In this document: in pieces, positions 1,729 through 54,899 of the stretch
Position numbering within the stretch: position 1 is the first letter of the stretch
Layout of the letters: the number at the start of each line of letters is the position of its first letter
Source: Planctomycetota bacterium
GTDB taxonomy: Bacteria; Planctomycetota; UBA8742; UBA2392
Length of the DNA stretch: 64,000 nucleotides
NCBI GenBank assembly: GCA_020848275.1
Contig: JADLAK010000073.1
Coordinates: 1-64,000, forward strand
Reading direction: 5' to 3'
Position numbers and translations under genes: made by a program
The notes under the pieces: model-generated
What the model was told of the DNA's origin: nothing
Seen by the model: the letters and a program-made list of their open reading frames with translations, nothing else
Database searches by the model: none

Positions 1729-4677
1729 ATGATGCGCAAGTTCTCGACGTATATCTACGCCTCGCTCTCAGTGGCGGTGTTCCTATTGGCCGTTGGTTGC
1801 CCCCTCGGCGCCAAGAGTTCCCTGCCCCCCGGCGGCAATGCGCCGGTAGCAGGCGTGCGCGTGGATGTCACGCCGCTCACCACCAGCGTGCAGCTCAGCG
1901 ACACGCGTGACTTCAACGCCGTTGTCGTCAACAGCGTCGACCAAAATGTGACCTGGAGCGTCATTGGCGGCGTCAACAACGGCAGCATCGACATCAGCGG
2001 CCTTTACCAGGCGCCCGGCACCATGCCCGCCAGCACCGCGGTCAAAGTTCGCGCGACATCGAATGCGTTTCCCACGGAATACGGCGAAGCGACGGTGACG
2101 CTCGTTCCTGGCCAGAGTTTCGGCGGCTTCCCAATCGAACTTCAAGTCGGCAACGCCGGCAACTGGCAGGCGCCCAACGTGCCTGTGACTTCCGGCGTGC
2201 CGCTGCCCAAGGGCCTGGTGCCGAGCATCAACGCGCTGCGCGTGACGACTTCCGGGGGCGCCTATGTGCCCGCGCAATTCACGGTGTTGTCAACGTGGGA
2301 CGACAACTCCGTGCGCTGGCTGCTGGTTGACTTCCTTGCGAACCTTTCGGGCGGCGTGATCTCCTATTACCTGAACAACGGCGGCACCGGCAACGCCACG
2401 GGCACACAACTTACGGTCATCACCGGCGGCGGCGTCATTACTGTCTCAACGGGCCCCCTTGAATTCACCGTGGGCAGTTCGGCGTTCCGGCTGTTCCAGA
2501 GCGTCAAGGTCGACCGTGACGGCGATGCGCAGGTCGACGACGAATGCCTCGAACCCGCGGCGCTCACGGGCGTAGTCGTCACCGAGGGCGTAACCGACTA
2601 CACCATGGACAAAGACCCCGCCGACAGCGTGGTGGTCGAGGAATCAGGGCCCATGCGCTGCTGTATCCGCGCCGAGGGCCGCTACCGTTCGATTTCCGCC
2701 GGGCCCGACAAGCTGCGCTGGATCGCACGCATCCACGCCTACACCGGGCAGCCCTACGTCAAGGTTGTCTACAGCATCGTCAACCGGGAACACGACGGCG
2801 AGGATAATAACGACATCCCTGCCAACGAAGCTGCACAGCTTGCCGACCACCAGGACGCTGACCAGATACGCTACACGCTGCCGGTTCGCAAAATCGCGCC
2901 AACCGACGACGTGCAGGCGCTGATCTCCGGCGACTCGGGCAACCACACAGGCACTTTGATCAACCCCGGCGAATACGGCGAGCTTCGCCAGACCTACGTC
3001 GGCAGCCATGACACAACGGCCGACAGTGGCAACCCGCAGCCCGCGGGCTACACAGGCCCCGATGGCAGCAGCGACCCGATGACGCGCATTTATCCTTCGG
3101 GCCCTGACGCCGACATCACCTACGTGTTGCAGGGCAACCTGACCGCGGTCAGCGGCGACCGCTGTCCGGGCTACATGCAGGTTGCGCTCGCCAATGGCAT
3201 TGACCAGTTGCGCGTGACCGCCGCGGTGCGCGACTTCTGGCAGAACTTTCCCAAGCAGTTCAACATCGAGTACGCCGGCAACATGCATATCGACCTGTGG
3301 CCCAACATCGGCGGCTGGCCCTGCCAGATGTTCGAGGGCGTGATGAAGACGCACGATATGCTGTTTGCGTTTGAGCCCATTGCGCAGGTTGACGCGGGGA
3401 CCGGCATCGTGCTCACCAACCTGATCAATGACCCGCCCTGTGCAACGGTGCACCCGCGGCACTTCAAGACCACGCAGGTGTGGGGCAACATCGCCACCAC
3501 CGATAGCGCCATGGACGACGTGTCGCGCTTCGCCGCACCTTATCGCACCAAGGTCCAGGCGTACCTGACGCAGTTGAAGCTGTGGTTCAGCGACATCGTC
3601 GCCGACCGCGACAACGGCAACGGCCTGGCGGGCGGCCACGCCTACAGCTTCTTTAACTGGGGCGATTGCAAGTCGGAGGATGTCAGCCACTCATGGGACA
3701 ACCACGACTGGAGCATTGCTCAGGCTTGTTTCAACTGGTACGCCGCTTCGCGAAGGCGCGACATGATGTTGTTCGGCGATGTTGCCCTGCGCCATTACCG
3801 CGACATCTGCGTCATCCACAGCGACGTCGGCCGGCGTTACAACTACACCGAGCCCTCCAACCCCGGCGTCGGGCCCTACGGCGCCACCCAAAAGGGCAAG
3901 AGCCGCGCGGCGGACAACAACCGCCAGCACAACATGGGCAACTTCGATTCCGGCTTGCCCAACCTTGAGGGCATCCAGGGCGAGGCGCTGGCTCACCATT
4001 ATCTGTTGACGGGCGATCGGCTCTCGCTGGACGTGCTTACCGAGTGCTACAACTTCACACGGGGCACCTGGAAGCGCTTCTTCGATAGCGCCAACGGCGG
4101 CACCGACACCATCCTGACCGCGCCCCTGCGCCAGGTCAGCGCCGCGTTGATGCTTGCGGCGGCCTACCACATGGCAACCAACGACGTGAACGCCAAGAAC
4201 TTTGCGATCTACGTGTTGTTCAAAGCGCGGGCGCGCCAAACGTCGACGGCGCCGCACGACCCGACGGGCCGCGGCTTTGACGACAGTTCGGGTTATTTCC
4301 AGAGTTACATCGTGGGGCACATGGTCGAGGCGCTGGAGTATTACCGCTGGGCGATCCAGGACAGCACGCTGGATAACAACATCCTCGAAGCCATGAGCTG
4401 GATTATAAGCTCGGACGCCGCCGTCTGGAGCAACGGCAACTTCGGCGAAAGTTACGGATCAACAGTCAATGCGGGGGGCCAGAACCTGCTGCTGGGCGCC
4501 GGATTTGCGGGCGCCAAACGCGCGGCCAGCGGAGGCAACTGGGTGCTGGACGCCGAGGATTTCCTCGATGCACAGTTGACGTCATTGGGGACCAGTTCGG
4601 ACGTAAACACGCGCCACACGACCTTTGCACAGCGCTTCCGCAACGGCCCGCAATTCCTGGCGGTGTTTGAACCGTAA
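1729..4677 (+). CDS. Lipoprotein with Ig-like domain and PcRGLX/YetA-like fold
   Basis: The 982-aa exported protein has a signal peptide and a probable lipobox ending at Cys24 (LLAVGC; Ala rather than Leu at -3 makes this slightly atypical). Residues 43-127 look like a bacterial Ig-like domain (TWSV..GSIDISGLYQAPG). From about 135 the sequence matches the N-terminal RIFT barrel of the PcRGLX/YetA family: GVPLPKGLV, VPAQFTVLSTW, NSVRWLLVDF. The rest, rich in aromatic and His residues (HAYSFFNWGD, RQHNMGNFDSG), fits the alpha-barrel catalytic part of that family, whose founding enzyme is an exo-rhamnogalacturonan lyase (PL26). A polysaccharide-degrading role at the cell surface is inference. 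The start is the first of two adjacent ATGs. Confidence 0.7.
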   Translation: MMRKFSTYIYASLSVAVFLLAVGCPLGAKSSLPPGGNAPVAGVRVDVTPLTTSVQLSDTRDFNAVVVNSVDQNVTWSVIGGVNNGSIDISGLYQAPGTMPASTAVKVRATSNAFPTEYGEATVTLVPGQSFGGFPIELQVGNAGNWQAPNVPVTSGVPLPKGLVPSINALRVTTSGGAYVPAQFTVLSTWDDNSVRWLLVDFLANLSGGVISYYLNNGGTGNATGTQLTVITGGGVITVSTGPLEFTVGSSAFRLFQSVKVDRDGDAQVDDECLEPAALTGVVVTEGVTDYTMDKDPADSVVVEESGPMRCCIRAEGRYRSISAGPDKLRWIARIHAYTGQPYVKVVYSIVNREHDGEDNNDIPANEAAQLADHQDADQIRYTLPVRKIAPTDDVQALISGDSGNHTGTLINPGEYGELRQTYVGSHDTTADSGNPQPAGYTGPDGSSDPMTRIYPSGPDADITYVLQGNLTAVSGDRCPGYMQVALANGIDQLRVTAAVRDFWQNFPKQFNIEYAGNMHIDLWPNIGGWPCQMFEGVMKTHDMLFAFEPIAQVDAGTGIVLTNLINDPPCATVHPRHFKTTQVWGNIATTDSAMDDVSRFAAPYRTKVQAYLTQLKLWFSDIVADRDNGNGLAGGHAYSFFNWGDCKSEDVSHSWDNHDWSIAQACFNWYAASRRRDMMLFGDVALRHYRDICVIHSDVGRRYNYTEPSNPGVGPYGATQKGKSRAADNNRQHNMGNFDSGLPNLEGIQGEALAHHYLLTGDRLSLDVLTECYNFTRGTWKRFFDSANGGTDTILTAPLRQVSAALMLAAAYHMATNDVNAKNFAIYVLFKARARQTSTAPHDPTGRGFDDSSGYFQSYIVGHMVEALEYYRWAIQDSTLDNNILEAMSWIISSDAAVWSNGNFGESYGSTVNAGGQNLLLGAGFAGAKRAASGGNWVLDAEDFLDAQLTSLGTSSDVNTRHTTFAQRFRNGPQFLAVFEP

Positions 4678-29913: not shown

Positions 29914-32388
29914 TTATTGGCGTTGAATGAAAGGGCGCGCTTCGATCTTGCCGTCGGCGCCGATCAAAAACGTGATCGCGCCCTGGTCGTATGTTCGCCA
30001 GAGTTTGCCCGGCGCCGCGGCGTAGGTCTCCAGCGCGCCTTCGTCAGGGAAGGTCTCGCGCGCGCTGATCACGATGTGCTGCGGCGACAGTCGTTCCAGC
30101 AGCCCTTTTAAACCTTCGACCGCGCTGCCCTGGTGCGGCGCCAGCAGGATATCCGGCTGCACGAGTTGATTGAGGATCGGCGCGAGACCCGAGTTCTCAA
30201 CATCCGCGGGCAGGAGTACGCGGCGCGGGCCCGCCGCGAGTTCCAGCACCATGCCCGCGTTGTTGCGGCGCTCACCCTCGGGAATCATCGCGCCGACGTA
30301 AGCCCTGTCGGGCCACAGGCAGCGCAGGCTTACGCCCGGTGAAATCTCGAAACTGTCGCCGCGCTTGAACACCATCACGCGCGTGCGAGCCGCGAGCCAC
30401 GCCTGCAAAGCGCGGCCGGTGTCGTCGTCGGCCAGCGACTCGCCGACCAGCACGGTGCCCACGGCAAAACGCTCAAACAGTTGCGGCAGGCCGTTGACGT
30501 GGTCAGCGTCGGCGTGGCTGACCGCCAGCACATCGATGCGCTTGCGGCCGCGCGACCACAGGTAGGGCGCCAGCACGCGTTCGCCGGGGCTGCCGAGACT
30601 CGTGCTGCCGCAATCAATCACGACCGTCGGCCCTCCGGGGACTTCAGCGACGGCGCAGATGCCCTGGCCGACGTCGAGCGCCGTCAGCCGCAACGGCCCC
30701 GGTGGCTCGTTCGAAACCAGCGCGGTTGCGGGGAGCAGGCACAGCCACAGCGACCAAGCCGCCGCACCGGCGACACGCGGCAGGCGCAATCGCGGCGCGA
30801 CCAGCGCGGCGATCAGCAGCGCGTAATCGCCAACGAGCCACCACACCGGCGGCGCAGCGACGTAGATGTGCCCAAAGGGGATGCTCGCAAACAGGCGCGA
30901 GAGCCACTCGAGCAAACCCGCGAGCAGGCCCATGACCCACGCGAGCACGCCGCCGACGCCGGGAATCAGCGCCAAGGGCAATGCGAGGCCGAGGATGAGA
31001 ATCACGCTGACCAGCGGGCCGGCCACTAAATTCGAAACCAGCATCACGGGGCTGAGCATGTGCATGAACAAAGCCAGCAGCGGCCACGTGCAGAGCCCCA
31101 CGCCGAGGGAAATCCGCAACGACGCGCCGAGCCAGCGCAGCAGCGCGCGGCTCGCGGTACGCGGCGGTCGCGGCTCGAACACGCGCAGCGCCGGCGCGAC
31201 CGCAACGATGCCGAGCACGGCCAGATAACTCAGCGCAAAGCCGATTTCGGCAACCTGCATCGGGTCAAACGCGAGCGACAGCAGCGCGCTCGCGCCAAGC
31301 ACGTTCAGCGTGTCCGGCTTGCGCTCAACCATATGTCCAAGCGCGTAAATCAGCACCATCAGCGTCGCACGCAGCGTGCTGGGCTGAATGCCCGTCACAA
31401 AGAAGTACGCCAGCGCCGCAAGGCCCGCGACCGCCCAGCACCAGCGCAGGTCGACGCCGAAGATTCGCAGCGCGAGCACGATCGCCGCCGCAAGCAACGC
31501 AACGTGCATGCCGCTGACCACCAGCAGGTGAACCGTCCCGCTTTGCACGAAGTGCGTGCGCTGGCTCGCGCTCAGCGTCCCGCGTTCGCCCAGCAGCGCC
31601 GCGCCGAGCACCGCCGCGTTGGCGCGTTCGATGCGCGAGCCCACCGCGCCGTGGAAGAATTCGTGCACACGCGCGGGCCAGGCCCAGCCGCCGGCGTCGC
31701 CGATAATCGTCACGGCGCGGGCGTCGTCGACGGTCATGGTGTGCGTGACACCGCGCAGGGCGTAGCGGCGCGCGCTGTCGACTTCGCCTTCGTTGCCCGC
31801 ACGGCGCGGCGTGCGCAGGCGGCCAAGCAGCTCGACCTCGCTCAGCAACGGCAGCCGCGTTTCCGGCGGCAGGTACAACTTCACCGCGCCGCTCGCGGAC
31901 ACACCGAGGTCCGGCAGCGAGTGGACCTCAAGCAGATAGCTCACGCCGCGGCGGGGATCGGCGCCGACGGGGAAGCCGTGAATGGGTGCGGGCTGTTCGG
32001 GATATTCAAACGCTGCGGGATCGCGCTTGAGGTAGTCGCCGCCCTCGACGATCACGCCGCGCAGTCGCACGAGTTCGGCGCCGTCGGGATAACGTGCAGC
32101 GAGGCTGTCGGCGGCGGGGGTTGCGCGAAACACTCCATAGCCAACGAAAGCCAGCGCGACAGCCAGTACCCCTAATAAGGACGCAACCCGACCCCAGCGT
32201 GATGCTGCGAACGCGCCAGCCATCAGCACAGCGCCGCCAATGACCGCGACCAGCGGCCAGGGGCCTTCGACGGGGTTGATGGCCGCTACAGCGCTTCCGA
32301 CGACGGCTGCTATGCCGGCCGCGAGCGCGGGACGGCGCGGCAGTCCGTCGTAGGGTTTAAGGTCGGAGGTCACGCCGTGAGCCAACAA
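29914..32388 (-). CDS. comEC: ComEC/Rec2-type DNA internalisation protein
   Basis: The 824-aa multispanning protein should form the inner-membrane channel for single-stranded DNA uptake. It has an N-terminal DUF4131-like region with several membrane segments, the Competence domain (GTLSASQRTHFVQSGTVHLLVVSGMHVAL, residues about 265-300, then polytopic), and a C-terminal metallo-beta-lactamase-like domain (LDVGQGICAV, SHADADHVNG, LLPADVE). The late motif reads LLAPHQGS instead of the usual APHHGS, so one metal-ligand position is Gln. No other com genes are visible nearby, though pilin-like genes occur at 38448 and 47537. Confidence 0.92.
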   Translation of the reverse strand: MLAHGVTSDLKPYDGLPRRPALAAGIAAVVGSAVAAINPVEGPWPLVAVIGGAVLMAGAFAASRWGRVASLLGVLAVALAFVGYGVFRATPAADSLAARYPDGAELVRLRGVIVEGGDYLKRDPAAFEYPEQPAPIHGFPVGADPRRGVSYLLEVHSLPDLGVSASGAVKLYLPPETRLPLLSEVELLGRLRTPRRAGNEGEVDSARRYALRGVTHTMTVDDARAVTIIGDAGGWAWPARVHEFFHGAVGSRIERANAAVLGAALLGERGTLSASQRTHFVQSGTVHLLVVSGMHVALLAAAIVLALRIFGVDLRWCWAVAGLAALAYFFVTGIQPSTLRATLMVLIYALGHMVERKPDTLNVLGASALLSLAFDPMQVAEIGFALSYLAVLGIVAVAPALRVFEPRPPRTASRALLRWLGASLRISLGVGLCTWPLLALFMHMLSPVMLVSNLVAGPLVSVILILGLALPLALIPGVGGVLAWVMGLLAGLLEWLSRLFASIPFGHIYVAAPPVWWLVGDYALLIAALVAPRLRLPRVAGAAAWSLWLCLLPATALVSNEPPGPLRLTALDVGQGICAVAEVPGGPTVVIDCGSTSLGSPGERVLAPYLWSRGRKRIDVLAVSHADADHVNGLPQLFERFAVGTVLVGESLADDDTGRALQAWLAARTRVMVFKRGDSFEISPGVSLRCLWPDRAYVGAMIPEGERRNNAGMVLELAAGPRRVLLPADVENSGLAPILNQLVQPDILLAPHQGSAVEGLKGLLERLSPQHIVISARETFPDEGALETYAAAPGKLWRTYDQGAITFLIGADGKIEARPFIQRQ

Positions 32389-42582: not shown

Positions 42583-43308
42583 ATGGAAGGCGTGATCCTT
42601 GCAATCGAAACATCGGGCGAAACCGGCGGCGCGGCTGTGCTGCGCGCCGGCCAGGTGCTCGCCGATTTTTCCGTCAGCGCCGCCAAAAAACACGGCGGCG
42701 AGATCACGCATTGCGTCGACCGCGCGATGGCTGTAGCCAAGCTCGAGCGCGGCGCCATCGACGTGGTGGTCGCCAACTGCGGGCCCGGCAGCTACACCGG
42801 CCTGCGCATCGGGCTCACTACCGCGATCACGCTCAGTTATGCGCTGGACCGGCCCGCCGTCGGCGTGCCGTGCTTCGACGTGATGGCCACGCACTACAGC
42901 CTTAGCGGCGACCTGGACATGCGTTACAAGGGCGAGCTGTGGCCCGTGCTCGATGCGCGGCGCGACGAGGTCATGACCGCGAAGTTCATGTACGACAAGG
43001 GCGTGCTGGAGCGCGTGGGCGGCGACGAACTGATTAACCCTGCCGAGTTTGGCAAGAAGGCCGCGCCGGGCAGCATTGTGTTTGGCAGCGGCATTGCGCC
43101 CTACATTGACGTCTTCAAAACCCAGCCGGTGAAACTGGGGCCGGACGTGTTCAACTTGTCTGCCTCGAGCCTTGCGTTGCAGGCCTATCGCCAGCTTTTG
43201 AACGTGGCCGGCCACGACAAGATCGAGCGCCGCCTGATCGAGCCGAGATACTTCCGGCGCGTGCTCGCCAAGACCACTGCGCAACGCGCCGCCGAAAATG
43301 CCCCTTAG
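42583..43308 (+). CDS. tsaB: tRNA threonylcarbamoyladenosine biosynthesis protein TsaB
   Basis: This ASKHA-fold partner of TsaD stabilises the complex that makes t6A37 on ANN-decoding tRNAs. The 241-aa protein has ILAIETSGETGGAAVL, the conserved VVANCGPGSYTGLRIGLTTAITLSYAL, and PVLDARRDEVMTAKF. The second half is divergent and degenerate, as usual for TsaB. tsaD and tsaE are not in this window. It is flanked on both sides by palindromic repeats, and the last residues (NAP) lie at the edge of the repeat at 43309-43375. Confidence 0.93.
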   Translation: MEGVILAIETSGETGGAAVLRAGQVLADFSVSAAKKHGGEITHCVDRAMAVAKLERGAIDVVVANCGPGSYTGLRIGLTTAITLSYALDRPAVGVPCFDVMATHYSLSGDLDMRYKGELWPVLDARRDEVMTAKFMYDKGVLERVGGDELINPAEFGKKAAPGSIVFGSGIAPYIDVFKTQPVKLGPDVFNLSASSLALQAYRQLLNVAGHDKIERRLIEPRYFRRVLAKTTAQRAAENAP

Positions 43309-43375
43309 GGATCAGGGAATAGGGATCGGGGATTAGATGCACCCAAATCCCTGATCCCAAATCCCTAACCCCTTG
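43309..43375. repeat. Iterated GGGATCAGGGA/AATCCCTGA palindrome
   Basis: GGGATCAGGGAATAGGGATC and GGGGATTAG are followed by the complementary AAATCCCTGATCCC and AAATCCCTAACCCC. It begins at or just past the tsaB stop. It is the same word family as 29069-29158. Confidence 0.85.
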
Positions 43376-43433
43376 CATTCGAACACTGTCATTTGGACTA
43401 ATCTGTGGCATCTAATCAACACAGGAACCCGAC

Positions 43434-44888
43434 ATGCCTCTTATCGCCCGTCCCGCCGCATTCCCGACCAAACTCTTCATCAATAACGAATTCGTCGACG
43501 CAAAGGACAAGCGCACTTACGACAGCATCAACCCCGCTACCGAAGACGTCGTCGCGCCCATTGCGTGTGCCGGCAAAGCCGACCTCGACGCCGCAATCGC
43601 CGCCGGCAAGGCCGCGCTTGCGGGCAAGTGGGGGACAATGTCGCCCGCGCAACGCAGCGGTTTAATCTTCAAGGTCAGCGCGGAAATCATGAAACGCAAA
43701 GAGCAGTTTGCGGCGCTGGAGGCGATGGACGCGGGCAAGCCCTACAGTGAATCGCTGATGATCGACGTGCCGATGACCGCCGATCACTTCGCGTACTACG
43801 CGGGCGTTCTGCGCTCGCTGCAGGGCGAGACCATCCCGGTCAATGACGCGCTCTTTGTCTACACGCTGCGCGAGCCCCTGGGCATCGTCGCGGGCATCAC
43901 GCCCTGGAACTTCCCGATGATCATGGCCGCGCGCAAAATCGCGCCCGCGATCGCCGCCGGCAACTGCGTGATCCTGAAGCCGGCCAACCCGACCCCGCTG
44001 ACGGCGCTGCTGATCGCCGAGTGCTGCGCCGCCGCAGGCATCCCGCCGGGCGTGGTCAGCGTACTGCCGGGCAAGGGCAGCGAAATCGGCCAGCAGATCG
44101 TCGAGCACCCGGACATCGCCGCGATCAGCTTCACCGGCAGCACGGAAATCGGCGTCAAGATGGTGCGCGATGCGGCGCCGACGCTGAAAAAGCTGACGAT
44201 GGAGTTGGGTGGAAAATCCCCGAACGTTGTGTTCGCTGACGCCGATATTGAGAACGCTGTTAAAGGAGCAACCGCGGCGATCTTTTACAACAAGGGCGAG
44301 GTCTGCACCGCGGGCTCGCGCTTGTTTGTCGAGGCGAAGGTCCACGACGAAGTCGTCGAGAAGCTCGGCCAGCGAGCAGCCAAGATGGTAGGCGGCGACC
44401 CGATGGACGACGCGACGCGCCTGGGCCCGCAGAACAACAAGCAGCAGTTCGAGACCACGCTGAAGTTTATCGAAGAAGGCAAGAAGGCCGGCGCCAAGCT
44501 TGTGGCCGGCGGCGAGCGTCAGGGCAGCAAGGGCTATTTCGTGAAACCCACGGTGTTCGCCGACACCAAACCGGAAATGAGCATCGTGAAGGAGGAAATC
44601 TTCGGCCCCGTGCTCGCTGTGCAAAAGTTCGAGACCTTCGACGAACTCGTGGCCAAGGCTAACGACTCGCGTTACGGGCTTGCGGCGGGCGTCTGGACGA
44701 AGGACGTCAGCAAGGCCCACAAGTACGCCAAGGCCGTCAAGGCCGGCAGCATCTGGGTCAACTGCTACAACTGGTACGACAGCGCCGTGCCCTACGGCGG
44801 CTACAAGCAAAGCGGCTACGGCCGCGAAATGGGGTTGACCGGCCTGACGCAGCTCACGCAATCCAAGAGCGTCTGGGTGCAGTTGTAA
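43434..44888 (+). CDS. NAD(P)-dependent aldehyde dehydrogenase
   Basis: The 484-aa protein oxidises an aldehyde to its acid. It shows GITPWNFPMIMAARKIAPAIAAGNCVILKPA, the Rossmann ISFTGSTEIG, the general base Glu in TMELGGKSPN, the nucleophile Cys in NKGEVCTAGSR and the C-terminal VPYGGYKQSGYGREMG. This pattern fits betaine/aldehyde dehydrogenase-like members; the substrate is not clear. The gene's last about 45 bp are repeated 600 bp downstream (45443-45497), with two small genes between the copies. Confidence 0.93.
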   Translation: MPLIARPAAFPTKLFINNEFVDAKDKRTYDSINPATEDVVAPIACAGKADLDAAIAAGKAALAGKWGTMSPAQRSGLIFKVSAEIMKRKEQFAALEAMDAGKPYSESLMIDVPMTADHFAYYAGVLRSLQGETIPVNDALFVYTLREPLGIVAGITPWNFPMIMAARKIAPAIAAGNCVILKPANPTPLTALLIAECCAAAGIPPGVVSVLPGKGSEIGQQIVEHPDIAAISFTGSTEIGVKMVRDAAPTLKKLTMELGGKSPNVVFADADIENAVKGATAAIFYNKGEVCTAGSRLFVEAKVHDEVVEKLGQRAAKMVGGDPMDDATRLGPQNNKQQFETTLKFIEEGKKAGAKLVAGGERQGSKGYFVKPTVFADTKPEMSIVKEEIFGPVLAVQKFETFDELVAKANDSRYGLAAGVWTKDVSKAHKYAKAVKAGSIWVNCYNWYDSAVPYGGYKQSGYGREMGLTGLTQLTQSKSVWVQL

Positions 44889-44889
44889 G
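44832..44889 (+). repeat. Direct repeat, copy 1 (ALDH 3' end)
   Basis: This holds GACGCAGCTCACGCA, CCAAGAGCGTCTGGGTGCAG and TTGTAAGGAA, the coding end of the aldehyde dehydrogenase. Copy 2 at 45443-45497 matches, with a 5-nt gap and a few substitutions. Confidence 0.85.
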
Positions 44890-44897
44890 GAATTCTT

Positions 44898-45155
44898 GTG
44901 CCGAAATGGCCGGACTGGTGGGAGTGGGAGCTGGATGTCTCCAACCCGCATTTGCGGGACAACATGGTTATTCGACGCTTTAGCGAAGTCGATTTGCGCG
45001 ATATGATGGAAAACGCGCGCAAATTAGCGCGTGACGTTGTGCCGGGCCGCTGGATCGTGGAGACACGGTTCGACAGCGCAGACTGGGAAGTCATCGTTGA
45101 ACCTGATGCGGTCAAACAACGTCTGATCGTGGTTACCGCCTACGAAGTGTACTGA
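44898..45155 (+). CDS. DUF4258-type small protein, possible toxin of a TA-like pair
   Basis: The 85-aa protein begins with a GTG at 44898, and its ribosome binding site TAAGGA overlaps the aldehyde dehydrogenase stop. It has WPDWWEWELDVSNPHLRDNM, FSEVDLRDMMENARKL, GRWIVETRF and WEVIVEPD..LIVVTAYEV, the pattern of DUF4258 proteins, small basic-and-acidic proteins of the RelE/BrnT-like toxin world. It is coupled to the next gene by TGATG. Together they sit between duplicated ends of another gene. A toxin role is inference from the family and context. Confidence 0.65.
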   Translation: MPKWPDWWEWELDVSNPHLRDNMVIRRFSEVDLRDMMENARKLARDVVPGRWIVETRFDSADWEVIVEPDAVKQRLIVVTAYEVY

Positions 45156-45421
45156 TGAGTGACTATCCGTATCTCCACGTGACCTTTAGAAACGGCAAGT
45201 TCTTTGCCGCGTACCTTTATTTGGCTGAACCGCGCGGCAAAGGACGCCCGAAGACCAAGCGCCTGTCTGGCTCAGTGTTGCTCGATGTTGATGAAAACGG
45301 CACTCCCATCGGCGTGGAGATTCTGTCGCGCGAGGGCCTGGATGCAGCAACACTAAACAGGCTTTTGAAACCTCATGGTGTCCGCACGATCGAACCGCGC
45401 GAGCTTGAAACGGCCGCCTGA
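45155..45421 (+). CDS. DUF2283-type small protein, possible antitoxin partner
   Basis: The 88-aa protein starts at ATG 45155, overlapping the previous stop by one base (TGATG), so translation is coupled. It contains FFAAYLYLAEPRGKGRPKTKRL, SVLLDVDENGTPIGVEILS and LNRLLKPHGV. The stretch D-V-D-E-N-G-x-x-I-G-x-E-I-L is the signature of DUF2283. DUF4258 and DUF2283 genes are found next to each other in many genomes, and an antitoxin role has been proposed for such partners; here it is inference. Confidence 0.65.
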   Translation: MSDYPYLHVTFRNGKFFAAYLYLAEPRGKGRPKTKRLSGSVLLDVDENGTPIGVEILSREGLDAATLNRLLKPHGVRTIEPRELETAA

Positions 45422-45442
45422 CCTTCGTTTCTCAGCGCAATC

Positions 45443-45497
45443 GGGTTTGACCGACGCAGCTCACGCAGACCAAGAGCGTCTGGGTGCAGCTGTAACG
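45443..45497 (+). repeat. Direct repeat, copy 2 (ALDH 3'-end duplicate)
   Basis: GACGCAGCTCACGCA, CCAAGAGCGTCTGGGTGCAG and CTGTAACGG recreate the last codons (SKSVWVQL-like, here TKSVWVQL) and stop of the aldehyde dehydrogenase. It is followed at once by a strong terminator, so this may be the original gene end. Confidence 0.85.
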
Positions 45498-45539
45498 GAA
45501 CATTCGCACTTGCCGTTACACGACTGAAACAAAACGTTC

Positions 45540-45571
45540 ACGACGCCCCGGGTTCTCCCGGGCGTCGCTTT
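45540..45571 (+). terminator. Rho-independent terminator
   Basis: CGACGCCCCGGG, loop TTCT, CCCGGGCGTCG and then CTTTGTTT. It lies downstream of the duplicated aldehyde dehydrogenase end and before the MRDD-family gene. Confidence 0.85.
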
Positions 45572-45574
45572 GTT

Positions 45575-45590
45575 TGGCACGGCGGTTGCA
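45575..45590 (+). promoter_or_regulatory. Sigma-54 promoter core before the MRDD-family gene
   Basis: TGGCACG (45575-45581), GCGG, TTGCA (45586-45590) is a perfect -24/-12 match, continued by ATATCGC. The predicted start of transcription (about 45601) is only a few bases before the ATG at 45606, so the message would be nearly leaderless. The flanks resemble those of the site at 8574-8589. Confidence 0.65.
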
Positions 45591-45605
45591 ATATCGCGCC
45601 GCGCT

Positions 45606-46412
45606 ATGCGTGACGACCTTGACCGAGTCATTATTAACAAGCCCCGCTGGAATCCTCGCGATGACAGCTCGCGCCTACGTTGGTGCGATCTCGAGGACGC
45701 TCCCGCGCGCGAGCCGATCAATCCCTACAACAACCGCAAGGGATTCACGGACCGGCTTGGACCGCTGCGCCGCTGGCTTGACGCGCAGGTCGGCCGCCAT
45801 TGGGACAAGGTCTACGGCGACCTCTGCGGCAGTCTGGATCGCCGCAAGGTTTCCGCGGACCACGTCTTTCTGCACGCCATGCGCTGGATTGCGCTGAACA
45901 CGCGTAAGGTCGACGGCGAGATTGTTGATTCGGCGGGCAACCCGCTCGTGGGGCGCTATCGCCCGTATGACTTTTACGTTTGTCCGCTGAGCGGAATGTT
46001 CCGGCGTGTGCCGGTTCGGCGCGAGAGTCGCCCGAAGAAGCTGACGATTGGCAATGCGCTTCTCTATCGGCCGGTGAGGTTCCGCAACACCATTGCCGTC
46101 CGACTGGAGGACCCGCAGGAGCGCTGGTACCGGATCAACGGGGCGTGGTACTTCGCTGAACTGGTCAGCCGCTGGAAGCACGAGTATCGCGACCGTCGGA
46201 AGTTCGACGAACCGTGGAATCTCGTCGAGGACGGTGTGCTTCGCCTGGTCCTTGGCCGTGCGACGGTCACCCGCTTACCGCAAGCGCTGGGCGAGGACTT
46301 CCTCGAAGACCTTCACGGCCGTGAGGGCAACTGGGTTTGGTTGGCGAACGAAGTCCGTCAACTCAAGCATGAGGAGATTCGTGACCTCGGCCTGCACAAG
46401 CGGGCGGCATAA
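45606..46412 (+). CDS. MRDD-family protein, unknown function (planctomycete-associated)
   Basis: The 268-aa protein starts at ATG 45606 (MRDDLDRVIINKPRWNPRDD), which is the conserved start of a multicopy family I know from planctomycete genomes. Other hallmarks are DLEDAPAREPI, LGPLRRWLDAQVGRHWDKVYGDLC and YDFYVCPLSGMFRR. The protein is basic, with no signal peptide, membrane segment or catalytic motif I recognise; the family's function is not known to me. The second half (LQALGEDFLEDLHGREGNWVWLANEVRQLKHEE-like) appears specific to this copy. It is preceded by a sigma-54 promoter core at 45575-45590. Confidence 0.75.
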   Translation: MRDDLDRVIINKPRWNPRDDSSRLRWCDLEDAPAREPINPYNNRKGFTDRLGPLRRWLDAQVGRHWDKVYGDLCGSLDRRKVSADHVFLHAMRWIALNTRKVDGEIVDSAGNPLVGRYRPYDFYVCPLSGMFRRVPVRRESRPKKLTIGNALLYRPVRFRNTIAVRLEDPQERWYRINGAWYFAELVSRWKHEYRDRRKFDEPWNLVEDGVLRLVLGRATVTRLPQALGEDFLEDLHGREGNWVWLANEVRQLKHEEIRDLGLHKRAA

Positions 46413-46476
46413 AATCTCCGATATCGGGGTCCGAAAGCGGCCAGAAGTGTGGCCGCTTTCGTGTTATTAAAGAGAT

Positions 46477-47028
46477 ATGCAGCTCGACGCCGACATCTGT
46501 TATGCCGCACTGCTCAAACGCGACCGCCGCTTCGACGGCCAGTTCTTCGTTGCGGTGAAGACCACGCGTATCTACTGCCGGCCGATCTGTCCTGCGCGCA
46601 CCGCCAAACGCGAGAACGTGACGTTCTACGCGACCGCCGCCGAGGCCCAGCGCGGGGGTTTTGTCCCCTGCCTGCGCTGCCGCCCCGACCTCGCGCCGGG
46701 TTCTTCCAGCGTCGACGCCAAGGCGACGCTCGCCAAACGCGCAACTGCGGTGATCAACAAGAACTGGCGGCTGGGCGTCGAAACTCTTGCGGCGACGCTG
46801 GGCGTCACGGCGCGGCACCTGCGCCGTGCGCTGCACGACGAGCTCGGCATCGCGCCGCTGGCATTTTTGCGCACTCAGCGTCTGGCTGTGGCAAAGCGGC
46901 TGCTGCGCGAAACCAACCTGACCGTCGCGCGCGTCGCGTTCGCCAGCGGATTTAACAGCGTGCGCCGCTTCAACGCCGCATTTCGCCAACACGTCGGCCA
47001 TGCGCCCAATACCTTGAGGAGACCATGA
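46477..47028 (+). CDS. Ada-type methylphosphotriester sensor with AraC-like HTH (AdaA-like)
   Basis: The 183-aa protein joins the N-terminal Ada domain, with zinc-binding cysteines in TRIYCRPICPAR and FVPCLRCRPD, to an AraC-type DNA-binding domain (LGVTARHLRRALHDELGIAPLAFLRTQRLAVAKRLL..VAFASGFNSVRRFNAAF). The first of these cysteines accepts methyl groups from phosphotriesters, turning the protein into an activator of alkylation repair. It overlaps ogt by 4 nt (ATGA). The organisation is the split AdaA/AdaB type rather than the fused Ada. Confidence 0.9.
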   Translation: MQLDADICYAALLKRDRRFDGQFFVAVKTTRIYCRPICPARTAKRENVTFYATAAEAQRGGFVPCLRCRPDLAPGSSSVDAKATLAKRATAVINKNWRLGVETLAATLGVTARHLRRALHDELGIAPLAFLRTQRLAVAKRLLRETNLTVARVAFASGFNSVRRFNAAFRQHVGHAPNTLRRP

Positions 47029-52415: not shown

Positions 52416-53600
52416 ATGCATTCAATTTCGAGCCTGCGCCGCCAGGCCTGCTGGACGCTCATCGCGCTTGTCGCGCTGAGCCTCCTGCCGGCCTGCCTCA
52501 GCGCGCAGTCCTACGAGTATCGGCCGGTACTCACCGATGCCGATGCCGCAAAGGTCAGCGAACGTTGCGAGGGCGTGATCGTCTATCCCGCCGTGACGGT
52601 CGCCGGCGCACAACTGCTCGCCAAGCTGAAACTCAAAGCCGTCTGCGTCTATCCCGACGACAGCAAGTTCGAGGTCTCGGGCGGCGTGGTGCGCGAACTG
52701 CTGAAATGCCCCACGCTTGAAAACGTCTCGGTGCGCAACTTCGCCGGGCTTTTTGACCATGACTTTGCGGGGCTGGCCGACCTTCAGCACCTCAACGTGC
52801 TTGAGTTGCGCGCTCTGCCCGGTATCACCGCCGAAACCATCACGTACGCCGCCAGGCCGAGGACGCTGGCGTACCTCACCCTGGTGGAGTGCCAGAAGGT
52901 AGGCCCCGCGGCGCTCGATTGCATCGCGAATATGCCGCTGGCGGGCCTTACCCTCGAGGGCAAGCAATTCAGCCTTTGCGGGATGTTGTTCACGGGCTCG
53001 GCGAATCTGTCCTACCTCGATTTACAGGCGATTGCCGCCGTGGACGACGCGTTCCTCTGCGGCCTGGCCCGCTTTCCGCTGGCGAATGTTTCGATCACTT
53101 CGACCCCGGGTTCGCTGCCGGGCGTTAGCGATGCCGGGCTGTTCGCGCTTGCCGGCATCGGAACGCTTGAGGGGCTGAGCATCGACGGCGTGGGCAACAT
53201 CAGCGACCGCGCACTGCAGCGGCTGGGCGCGATGACCCGCCTGTCGCACCTTTCTTTGACCGCGGGCAAGGCGCCCTCGGTGCTGTTGACGTCGGGCGGC
53301 GTCAACGCCCTGCTGCGTTCGAACTCGCTCGTGTCACTGTCGCTTGGCGGCCAGAACAAAATCAGTTGGGCGATTGGCAAAAATTTCGGCGCGGGCGGCA
53401 GCATCCAGAACATCGATCTTTCCGCAACCAGCATCGACGACGCAAACCTGAAGCTGGTCGCCGAGCGCCTCGTGAAGGCCAACGTGAAATCAGTCGACAC
53501 GACGGGTTGCGGCAATGTCAGCGAAGCGGGCCGCCTTATCGCCAACCGGATCAACAATTGCATCGACGCCAACGGGCTGGATTGCGGCGTCCGGCAGTAA
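52416..53600 (+). CDS. Secreted LRR-like protein, paralog 1
   Basis: The 394-aa exported protein starts at ATG 52416 with AGGAGGA upstream and a signal sequence SLRRQACWTLIALVALSLLPACLSAQS. The last residues LLPACLSA are ambiguous between a lipobox (Pro at -2 is unusual) and signal peptidase I. The mature part consists of leucine-rich-like repeats (LQHLNVLELRALPGITAET, LAYLTLVECQKVGPAAL, LSYLDLQAIAAVDDAFL, LEGLSIDGVGNISDRAL). It resembles LRR protein-interaction modules of planctomycetes. The second paralog follows 93 nt downstream. Function is unknown. Confidence 0.8.
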   Translation: MHSISSLRRQACWTLIALVALSLLPACLSAQSYEYRPVLTDADAAKVSERCEGVIVYPAVTVAGAQLLAKLKLKAVCVYPDDSKFEVSGGVVRELLKCPTLENVSVRNFAGLFDHDFAGLADLQHLNVLELRALPGITAETITYAARPRTLAYLTLVECQKVGPAALDCIANMPLAGLTLEGKQFSLCGMLFTGSANLSYLDLQAIAAVDDAFLCGLARFPLANVSITSTPGSLPGVSDAGLFALAGIGTLEGLSIDGVGNISDRALQRLGAMTRLSHLSLTAGKAPSVLLTSGGVNALLRSNSLVSLSLGGQNKISWAIGKNFGAGGSIQNIDLSATSIDDANLKLVAERLVKANVKSVDTTGCGNVSEAGRLIANRINNCIDANGLDCGVRQ

Positions 53601-53693: not shown

Positions 53694-54899
53694 ATGACGC
53701 ACAATCGCAGCCTGCCCTCGCGGGCCCGCTGGACGCTCACCGCCCTGCTGGCGCTGAGCCTCTTGCCGGCCTGCCTCGGGGCCCAGAGCATGGGTACCGC
53801 CGCCGTCGAGTTCGTTTCGGTGAAGCAGGATTCCGATATCGACAAGCTGCCCGCGACCACCTCCGCCGTCTCGGTCTTGGGAACCAGCTATACCGCTGTA
53901 GCGGGCCGCAAGCTGGCGCAGCTTACACAGCTGACCAACCTCGAGTTTCAGTGGACGGGGGTGAAAGCCGTCAGCGCCGACTTCTTGCGAGAAGCGGTAA
54001 AGTGCAAGTCATTGAAGGAACTTTTTGTGGCGGGTGGCGAAAATCTGCGCGATGCTGATTTCGGCGGTCTGGCAGGCCTGCAAAATCTGTTTTCGCTCCA
54101 GCTGGCGGGACTGTCGGGCATTACGGTCGAGACACTGAAGAGCGCCGCCAAGGGCGGCAAATTGTCGTGCCTGGTGCTGACAGGCTGCACGGCGATAGCG
54201 GGTGCTGCCGCCTTAAAAACAATCGGCACCCTGCCCCTGAAAACGATGATGCTCAAGAAGTCGCCGATTAACCTGGCATCGCTGGAATTTTCTCCTTCAT
54301 CCAGCCTGACCTACCTTTCCCTGATCGATGTTGAAGGCATCAATGACGCGCTTCTCGAAAATATCGCAAAAAAGATGACAGTCGAACAACTGGTGCTGCG
54401 TGGCACCGGCGGGTCGACACCCGGCATTACCGACAAGGGCGTTGCGGCCCTCGGCGCGTTGCCCGGCCTTCGCCGACTTTACATCGGTGGCGCTTCCAAA
54501 CTGACTGATGCGGCCGCGGCCACGCTGGCGGCCATGCCCGGATTGTGCGACCTCACGCTTGCGGGCGGCAAGTCCCCCGCCGCCAAGCTGACTTCCAAGG
54601 GTGCGCTGATGCTGCTTGCGTCAGACAACCTGACCTTCGTGTCGCTGGCCGAGCAGACGAAGCTGACGCTGGAAGTACCCGCGGATTTCAAGGCCGGCGC
54701 AAAACTAATGCGCTTTAACCTTTCGAAGACAGCATTCGACGACAAGGCCCTTTTGGCAATGGCGGGCAAGCTTGACCAGCTTGACTGCGTTTTCATCCAT
54801 GGTTGCGCCAAGGTGACACAAAAGGGAATAGACAAATTGAAGGCTGCCCATCCAAAGCTGTATGTGGACTTGGCCGACAGAAACCAGGAGCCCTTCTAG
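53694..54899 (+). CDS. Secreted LRR-like protein, paralog 2
   Basis: The 401-aa protein has the ATG at 53694 preceded by AGGAGAG. It has the same signal as paralog 1 (RWTLTALLALSLLPACLGAQS) and the same LRR-like frame (LTNLEFQWTGVKAVSADFL, LKELFVAGGENLRDADF, LSCLVLTGCTAIAGAAAL, LTYLSLIDVEGINDALL). The two differ enough in sequence to be old duplicates. A divergently encoded XRE-TPR regulator upstream of paralog 1 may control both. The C-terminal TQKGIDKLKAAHPKLYVD recurs in the remnant downstream. Confidence 0.8.
   Translation: MTHNRSLPSRARWTLTALLALSLLPACLGAQSMGTAAVEFVSVKQDSDIDKLPATTSAVSVLGTSYTAVAGRKLAQLTQLTNLEFQWTGVKAVSADFLREAVKCKSLKELFVAGGENLRDADFGGLAGLQNLFSLQLAGLSGITVETLKSAAKGGKLSCLVLTGCTAIAGAAALKTIGTLPLKTMMLKKSPINLASLEFSPSSSLTYLSLIDVEGINDALLENIAKKMTVEQLVLRGTGGSTPGITDKGVAALGALPGLRRLYIGGASKLTDAAAATLAAMPGLCDLTLAGGKSPAAKLTSKGALMLLASDNLTFVSLAEQTKLTLEVPADFKAGAKLMRFNLSKTAFDDKALLAMAGKLDQLDCVFIHGCAKVTQKGIDKLKAAHPKLYVDLADRNQEPF

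Follow-up and report, generated by a model that had tools for sequence, protein, structure and literature searches.

A putative toxin-antitoxin gene pair between two copies of an aldehyde dehydrogenase gene end in a Planctomycetota genome suggests acquisition anchored by gene-end homology

How does a pair of small genes come to be framed exactly by two copies of a housekeeping gene's end? This arrangement is found in a 64,000-nucleotide stretch of a Planctomycetota genome (G000), which is called the window hereafter. An earlier note, made from these letters alone, had proposed that a small module inserted at the 3' end of an aldehyde dehydrogenase gene and restored the gene with its own copy, in the manner of integrative elements at tRNA genes. 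We compared the locus with 15 further genomes of the same family, with other loci carrying the same gene pair and with the rest of the host genome.

Results

The host gene that anchors the locus encodes an aldehyde dehydrogenase (ALDH; 43434-44888, plus strand; PF00171, E 4e-175). Its last 43 nt (copy 1, 44846-44888, plus strand, inside the gene) recur at 45453-45495 on the same strand as a second, probably displaced 3' end (copy 2), with 93% identity (40/43) and a spacing of 607, and both copies close with a TAA stop codon, which confirms that the ALDH end including its stop is repeated some 600 bp further on. This is the longest direct repeat within 43000-47000, and when the downstream DNA was shuffled 200 times no match exceeded 24/43, compared with the 40/43 observed. 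Gapped alignment extended the repeat to 44824-44892 and 45435-45500 (83% across 71 columns); a 5-nt gap in the upstream part of copy 2 disrupts its reading frame. Copy 1 carries CAATCC, as do two of the three genomes of the sister genus g6, and copy 2 carries CAGACC, which is common in g3 and g5. The earlier note had also placed a terminator past the distal copy. A terminator-like hairpin, gacgccccgggttctcccgggcgtc, can be read by eye there, 3' of copy 2 (about 45542-45566, plus strand), but the terminator scan of the window gave no flag at that position.

As had been noted, two small genes occupy the interval between the copies, a DUF4258-like gene for a putative RelE/ParE-type toxin (44898-45155, plus strand) and a gene for a DUF2283 protein, the putative antitoxin (45155-45421, plus strand). 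The first begins with GTG 9 nt past the ALDH stop, the two overlap by 1 nt, and the insert, of about 540 bp, contains nothing else. The DUF2283 protein matched PF10049 (E 1.7e-5; 25.4 bits, cut-off 23). The window's own DUF4258-like protein gave no match in a Pfam search, including PF14076 (DUF4258) at E 10; the DUF4258 assignment holds at the level of the family, since 29 of 31 aligned members match PF14076. The AlphaFold model of this protein (pLDDT 94.7) had RelE, RelBE and HigB as top PDB matches with modest scores (E 0.013-0.04, TM 0.46-0.56), and the fold search with the DUF2283 protein yielded nothing useful. We infer the toxin and antitoxin roles, because the fold scores are modest and DUF4258 is placed in the RelE/ParE superfamily as a family whose activity is unknown (PMC11980606). 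All 34 pairs from which the tree was built have the DUF2283 gene next to the DUF4258-like one. A multicopy mobile family was considered and rejected, as 38 of the 39 genomes searched contain a single copy. In addition, a search for plasmid relatives of the DUF4258-like protein found none, and a literature search found no paper with both DUF4258 and DUF2283.

In the family genomes, whose assemblies are drafts and mostly metagenome-derived, 12 of the 15 relatives had ALDH with no intact pair following it, the kind of site that the earlier note had suggested looking for. One of these 12 (G011) has a decayed DUF4258 remnant 3' of the ALDH stop codon. The pair lies directly behind the same ALDH in G007 and G014, and the ALDH search in G002 gave no match above threshold. 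Behind its pair, G007 has a second, degraded ALDH end; G014 has the pair but no second ALDH end there. The duplication is thus not obligatory for a pair at ALDH and the scar is not universal; the pair without duplication that the earlier note had named as evidence against its reading is found in this one genome. Four genomes belonging to two genera have the pair or its remnant beginning 0-9 nt past this ALDH stop.

The interval between the conserved ALDH and Ada genes (44889-46476, no strand assigned) is variable, with different content in G007, G013 and G014. Between G007 and G014, DNA identity is 95.4% for ALDH and 65.5% for the pair; the drop, from 98% to about 65%, coincides exactly with the ALDH stop, and identity rises again ahead of the Ada gene. 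Furthermore, the tree groups the three ALDH-site pairs in a single clade (support 100/100). This clade, together with the identity break at the stop, indicates that pair alleles moved between lineages separately from their flanks, yet to the same gene end, the address being unchanged. The ALDH end of any relative matched either G000 copy at no more than 34/43 positions (31/43 between G000 and G007), compared with 40/43 between the two copies, which makes the duplication younger than the split of the genera and places the event within the genus lineage.

The same scar was found at other loci. We compared 49 de-duplicated pair loci with themselves, using longest-ORF gene calls in the fetched loci, and counted repeats scoring at least 50 within 1.5 kb. 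Under these thresholds, which were set after a first look at the pair loci, 9 of the 49 were bracketed by repeats, against 0.98 expected from random placement in the same loci; other pairs flanked by duplicated gene ends, which the earlier note had proposed to seek, are therefore present. The nine include the window case and L049, which is part of an attC-like array, possibly an integron. BrnT modules were bracketed at 3 of 15 loci (0.07 expected), ParE and PIN modules of the family at 1 of 24 and 1 of 18, respectively, and the idea of an effect specific to DUF4258/DUF2283 was dropped, as BrnT loci show the scar too and ParE and PIN loci less often. Such repeats occur about 7-10 times per Mb by our own count, so not every one marks an insertion. 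A Nitrospirota sample gained no further pairs (1/296). attC-like sequences read by eye beside the pair at L049:2752-3566 and L050:443-500 suggest integron cassettes. For the window pair an integron cassette was rejected, as its repeat is the ALDH coding end and, by eye, no pair locus other than L049 and L050 showed attC-like sequences.

In 1.49 Mb of G000 that we scanned, gene ends were copied across an insert at lepA, an FAD-oxidoreductase gene, nuoF (36 nt) and a gene on C15, the last at its 5' end. On contig 8 (L166:17291-18089), a Phd-ParE module (PF02604, E 1e-15; PF05016, E 5e-17) lies between two FAD-oxidoreductase 3' ends, and the copies of this end and of nuoF run on into different C-terminal tails. 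On contig 12 (L170:9190-11466), a PAS histidine kinase gene lies between two lepA 3' ends, whose differences are nearly all synonymous. In a Nitrospira locus (L061:3496-7284) the wecB 3' end occurs four times in total, and between these ends lie two different DUF4258/DUF2283 pairs as well as toxin-antitoxin-like DUF2442 and DUF2281 genes, a pattern as serial events would give. The pair at L095 (G304, reverse strand, 1380-2189) lies inside an FG-GAP gene, in its 3' coding part, and has a 98-bp repeat of 94% identity. Gene 5' ends are duplicated as well, around a trypsin-like gene on G000 contig 15 (L208:298-2498) and, for a metallo-beta-lactamase-fold gene, around a pair plus an MqsA-like gene (L087:3814-4911). 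The repeat at L059 (2805-2903 and 4402-4500) spans the region of the DUF2283 3' end, and its two copies enclose a DNA adenine methylase-like gene.

The differences between copies bear on whether they diverged before or after they were joined. If the target were copied at insertion, amino-acid changes should be frequent among the differences that the untranslated copy acquired afterwards, and we put the expected synonymous share at approximately 0.36. Counts of changed codons (synonymous/non-synonymous) were 9/3 for lepA, 4/0 for the FAD-oxidoreductase gene, 6/3 for the C15 gene, 9/4 for an ATP-grasp gene beside a PIN module in G012 and 3/3 for ALDH in G000, the last giving P 0.37 alone. Pooled, these five family sites gave 31/13 (31 of 44 synonymous; P 3.5e-6 against decay after duplication), a P value that is indicative, as the sites were picked as the clearest. 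The second ALDH copy of G007 showed 2/6, that is, plain decay. The mainly synonymous differences at the best-preserved sites indicate that the copies there diverged as working genes in different lineages before joining.

Discussion

The explanation that we favour, and regard as moderately probable, is an acquisition anchored by homology, in which an incoming gene end with its cargo displaced the resident end. DNA of a close relative, carrying its own ALDH end followed by the pair, would have entered the cell, and homology between the incoming and resident ALDH ends would have allowed recombination, either by a single crossover of a circularised fragment or by homology on one side and an illegitimate join on the other. 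ALDH would stay whole, the pair would land directly 3' of its stop, where ALDH transcription could read it, and the surplus ALDH end would stay downstream as a scar. Because it leaves the gene intact, integration at a gene end would also have the best chance of persisting. What we infer in this account is the donor, the circle, co-transcription and toxin-antitoxin activity. The competence gene comEC is found in all 16 family genomes and is also widespread in bacteria; in the window it lies at 30793-31596 on the minus strand. Several observations speak against homology-anchored acquisition: for a single crossover, about 50-100 bp is little homology, the start of the pair 0-9 nt past the stop in four genomes is tidier than random recombination needs, and at the ALDH site the synonymous test is weak, the G007 copy is decayed and G014 has no second end. 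Its application to this site would thus rest partly on analogy with the other sites.

That the module was inserted, as the earlier note had it, is borne out by the pair-less relatives, by the repeat-bracketed pairs elsewhere and by the pattern of differences at several sites, which also suggests that one copy arrived with the insert. How it was inserted is another matter. If a recombinase acting in trans had integrated the pair site-specifically at the 3' end of ALDH, the constant position past the same stop and the single clade of ALDH-site pairs would be explained, but the insert is only about 540 bp long, its terminal inverted repeats are at chance level and no recombinase was found among the neighbouring genes scanned. 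Moreover, repeat length, host gene and gene end differ from site to site, and the same scars flank unrelated cargo at both 3' and 5' gene ends, so that the integrative-element mode of the earlier note is unsupported and we consider it quite improbable. Insertion with a long target duplication, in which the target is copied on insertion as for restriction-modification systems, would fit the small toxin-antitoxin modules that are flanked by repeats of about 50-200 bp, the mixed changes in the L095 repeat and the duplications of about 100 bp described for those systems (PMC3874152). This explanation predicts copies that were identical at insertion. The five pooled sites instead show synonymous-biased divergence, and the mostly synonymous differences at the best-preserved sites, with the different tails of the FAD-oxidoreductase and nuoF copies, indicate that the copies diverged before they met; we regard target duplication as unlikely.

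The pair could also be ancestral behind ALDH, with the repeat produced by a later local duplication or gene conversion, as its monophyly at this site and its presence, intact or as a remnant, in four genomes of two genera might suggest. This would require many losses, the divergence of the pairs is out of step with that of their flanks, and the G000 copies are 93% identical against 31/43 between the G000 and G007 ends, which makes an ancestral pair very hard to credit. That two strains of one metagenome bin were assembled into a chimera is hardly conceivable: the genome is in 111 contigs and the copies resemble alleles, but the structure is repeated in independent genomes and studies.

Displacement of gene ends has precedents. 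In rhs genes, C-terminal ends are pushed downstream, for which a circle and a single crossover have been proposed (Jackson 2009, PMC2935791); common to both cases are ends displaced downstream in arrays and exchange among close relatives only, whereas here ordinary housekeeping gene ends serve as anchors, the gene product changes little and an independent gene pair makes up the cargo. As in such displacement, the displaced end of the same gene lies downstream, a close relative is its probable origin, and L061 has an array of ends. In E. coli, incoming DNA with homology to the lacZ end left lacZ duplications of 109-950 bp (Amarir-Bouhram 2011, PMC3240628), and 56 of 60 Lac-minus recombinants gave a PCR product diagnostic of the duplicated end (PMC3240628). 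There too, gene-end homology of linear DNA led to a duplicated gene end, although with laboratory plasmids, whereas the present case is deduced from natural genomes and has shorter repeats. Immunity-gene arrays of the T6SS arise by homology-anchored insertion of toxin/immunity modules (Kirchberger 2017, PMC5361080) and likewise shift old 3' parts downstream, but are confined to T6SS loci. Restriction-modification systems (Nobusato 2000, cited in PMC3874152) are addiction-type modules that also lie between repeats of about 100 bp with no transposase; in contrast to such fresh target copies, the best-preserved copies here are diverged homologous ends.

To our knowledge, the transposase-free spread of small chromosomal toxin-antitoxin modules is poorly understood. 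The same scar around other pairs in G000 and in distant bacteria suggests that spread without an enzyme of their own is possible. A wider proposal, which we offer tentatively as a doubtful but possible one, is that small toxin-antitoxin modules spread as recombinase-free cassettes which carry along part of a housekeeping gene end, use it as address and leave it as scar, and whose circles would leave and re-enter by homologous recombination. A displaced gene end is a readable scar that could be used to date events, to seek donors and to count homology-driven gene gain in any genome.

Two further repeats were observed. On G000 contig 29 (L222), a 3.8 kb contig, a 94-bp direct repeat of 97% identity lies near both ends (288-380 and 3733-3826). 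In the window, two related genes in tandem share a 78-bp repeat (52431-52508 and 53709-53786) at their signal-peptide-like starts, which is ordinary.
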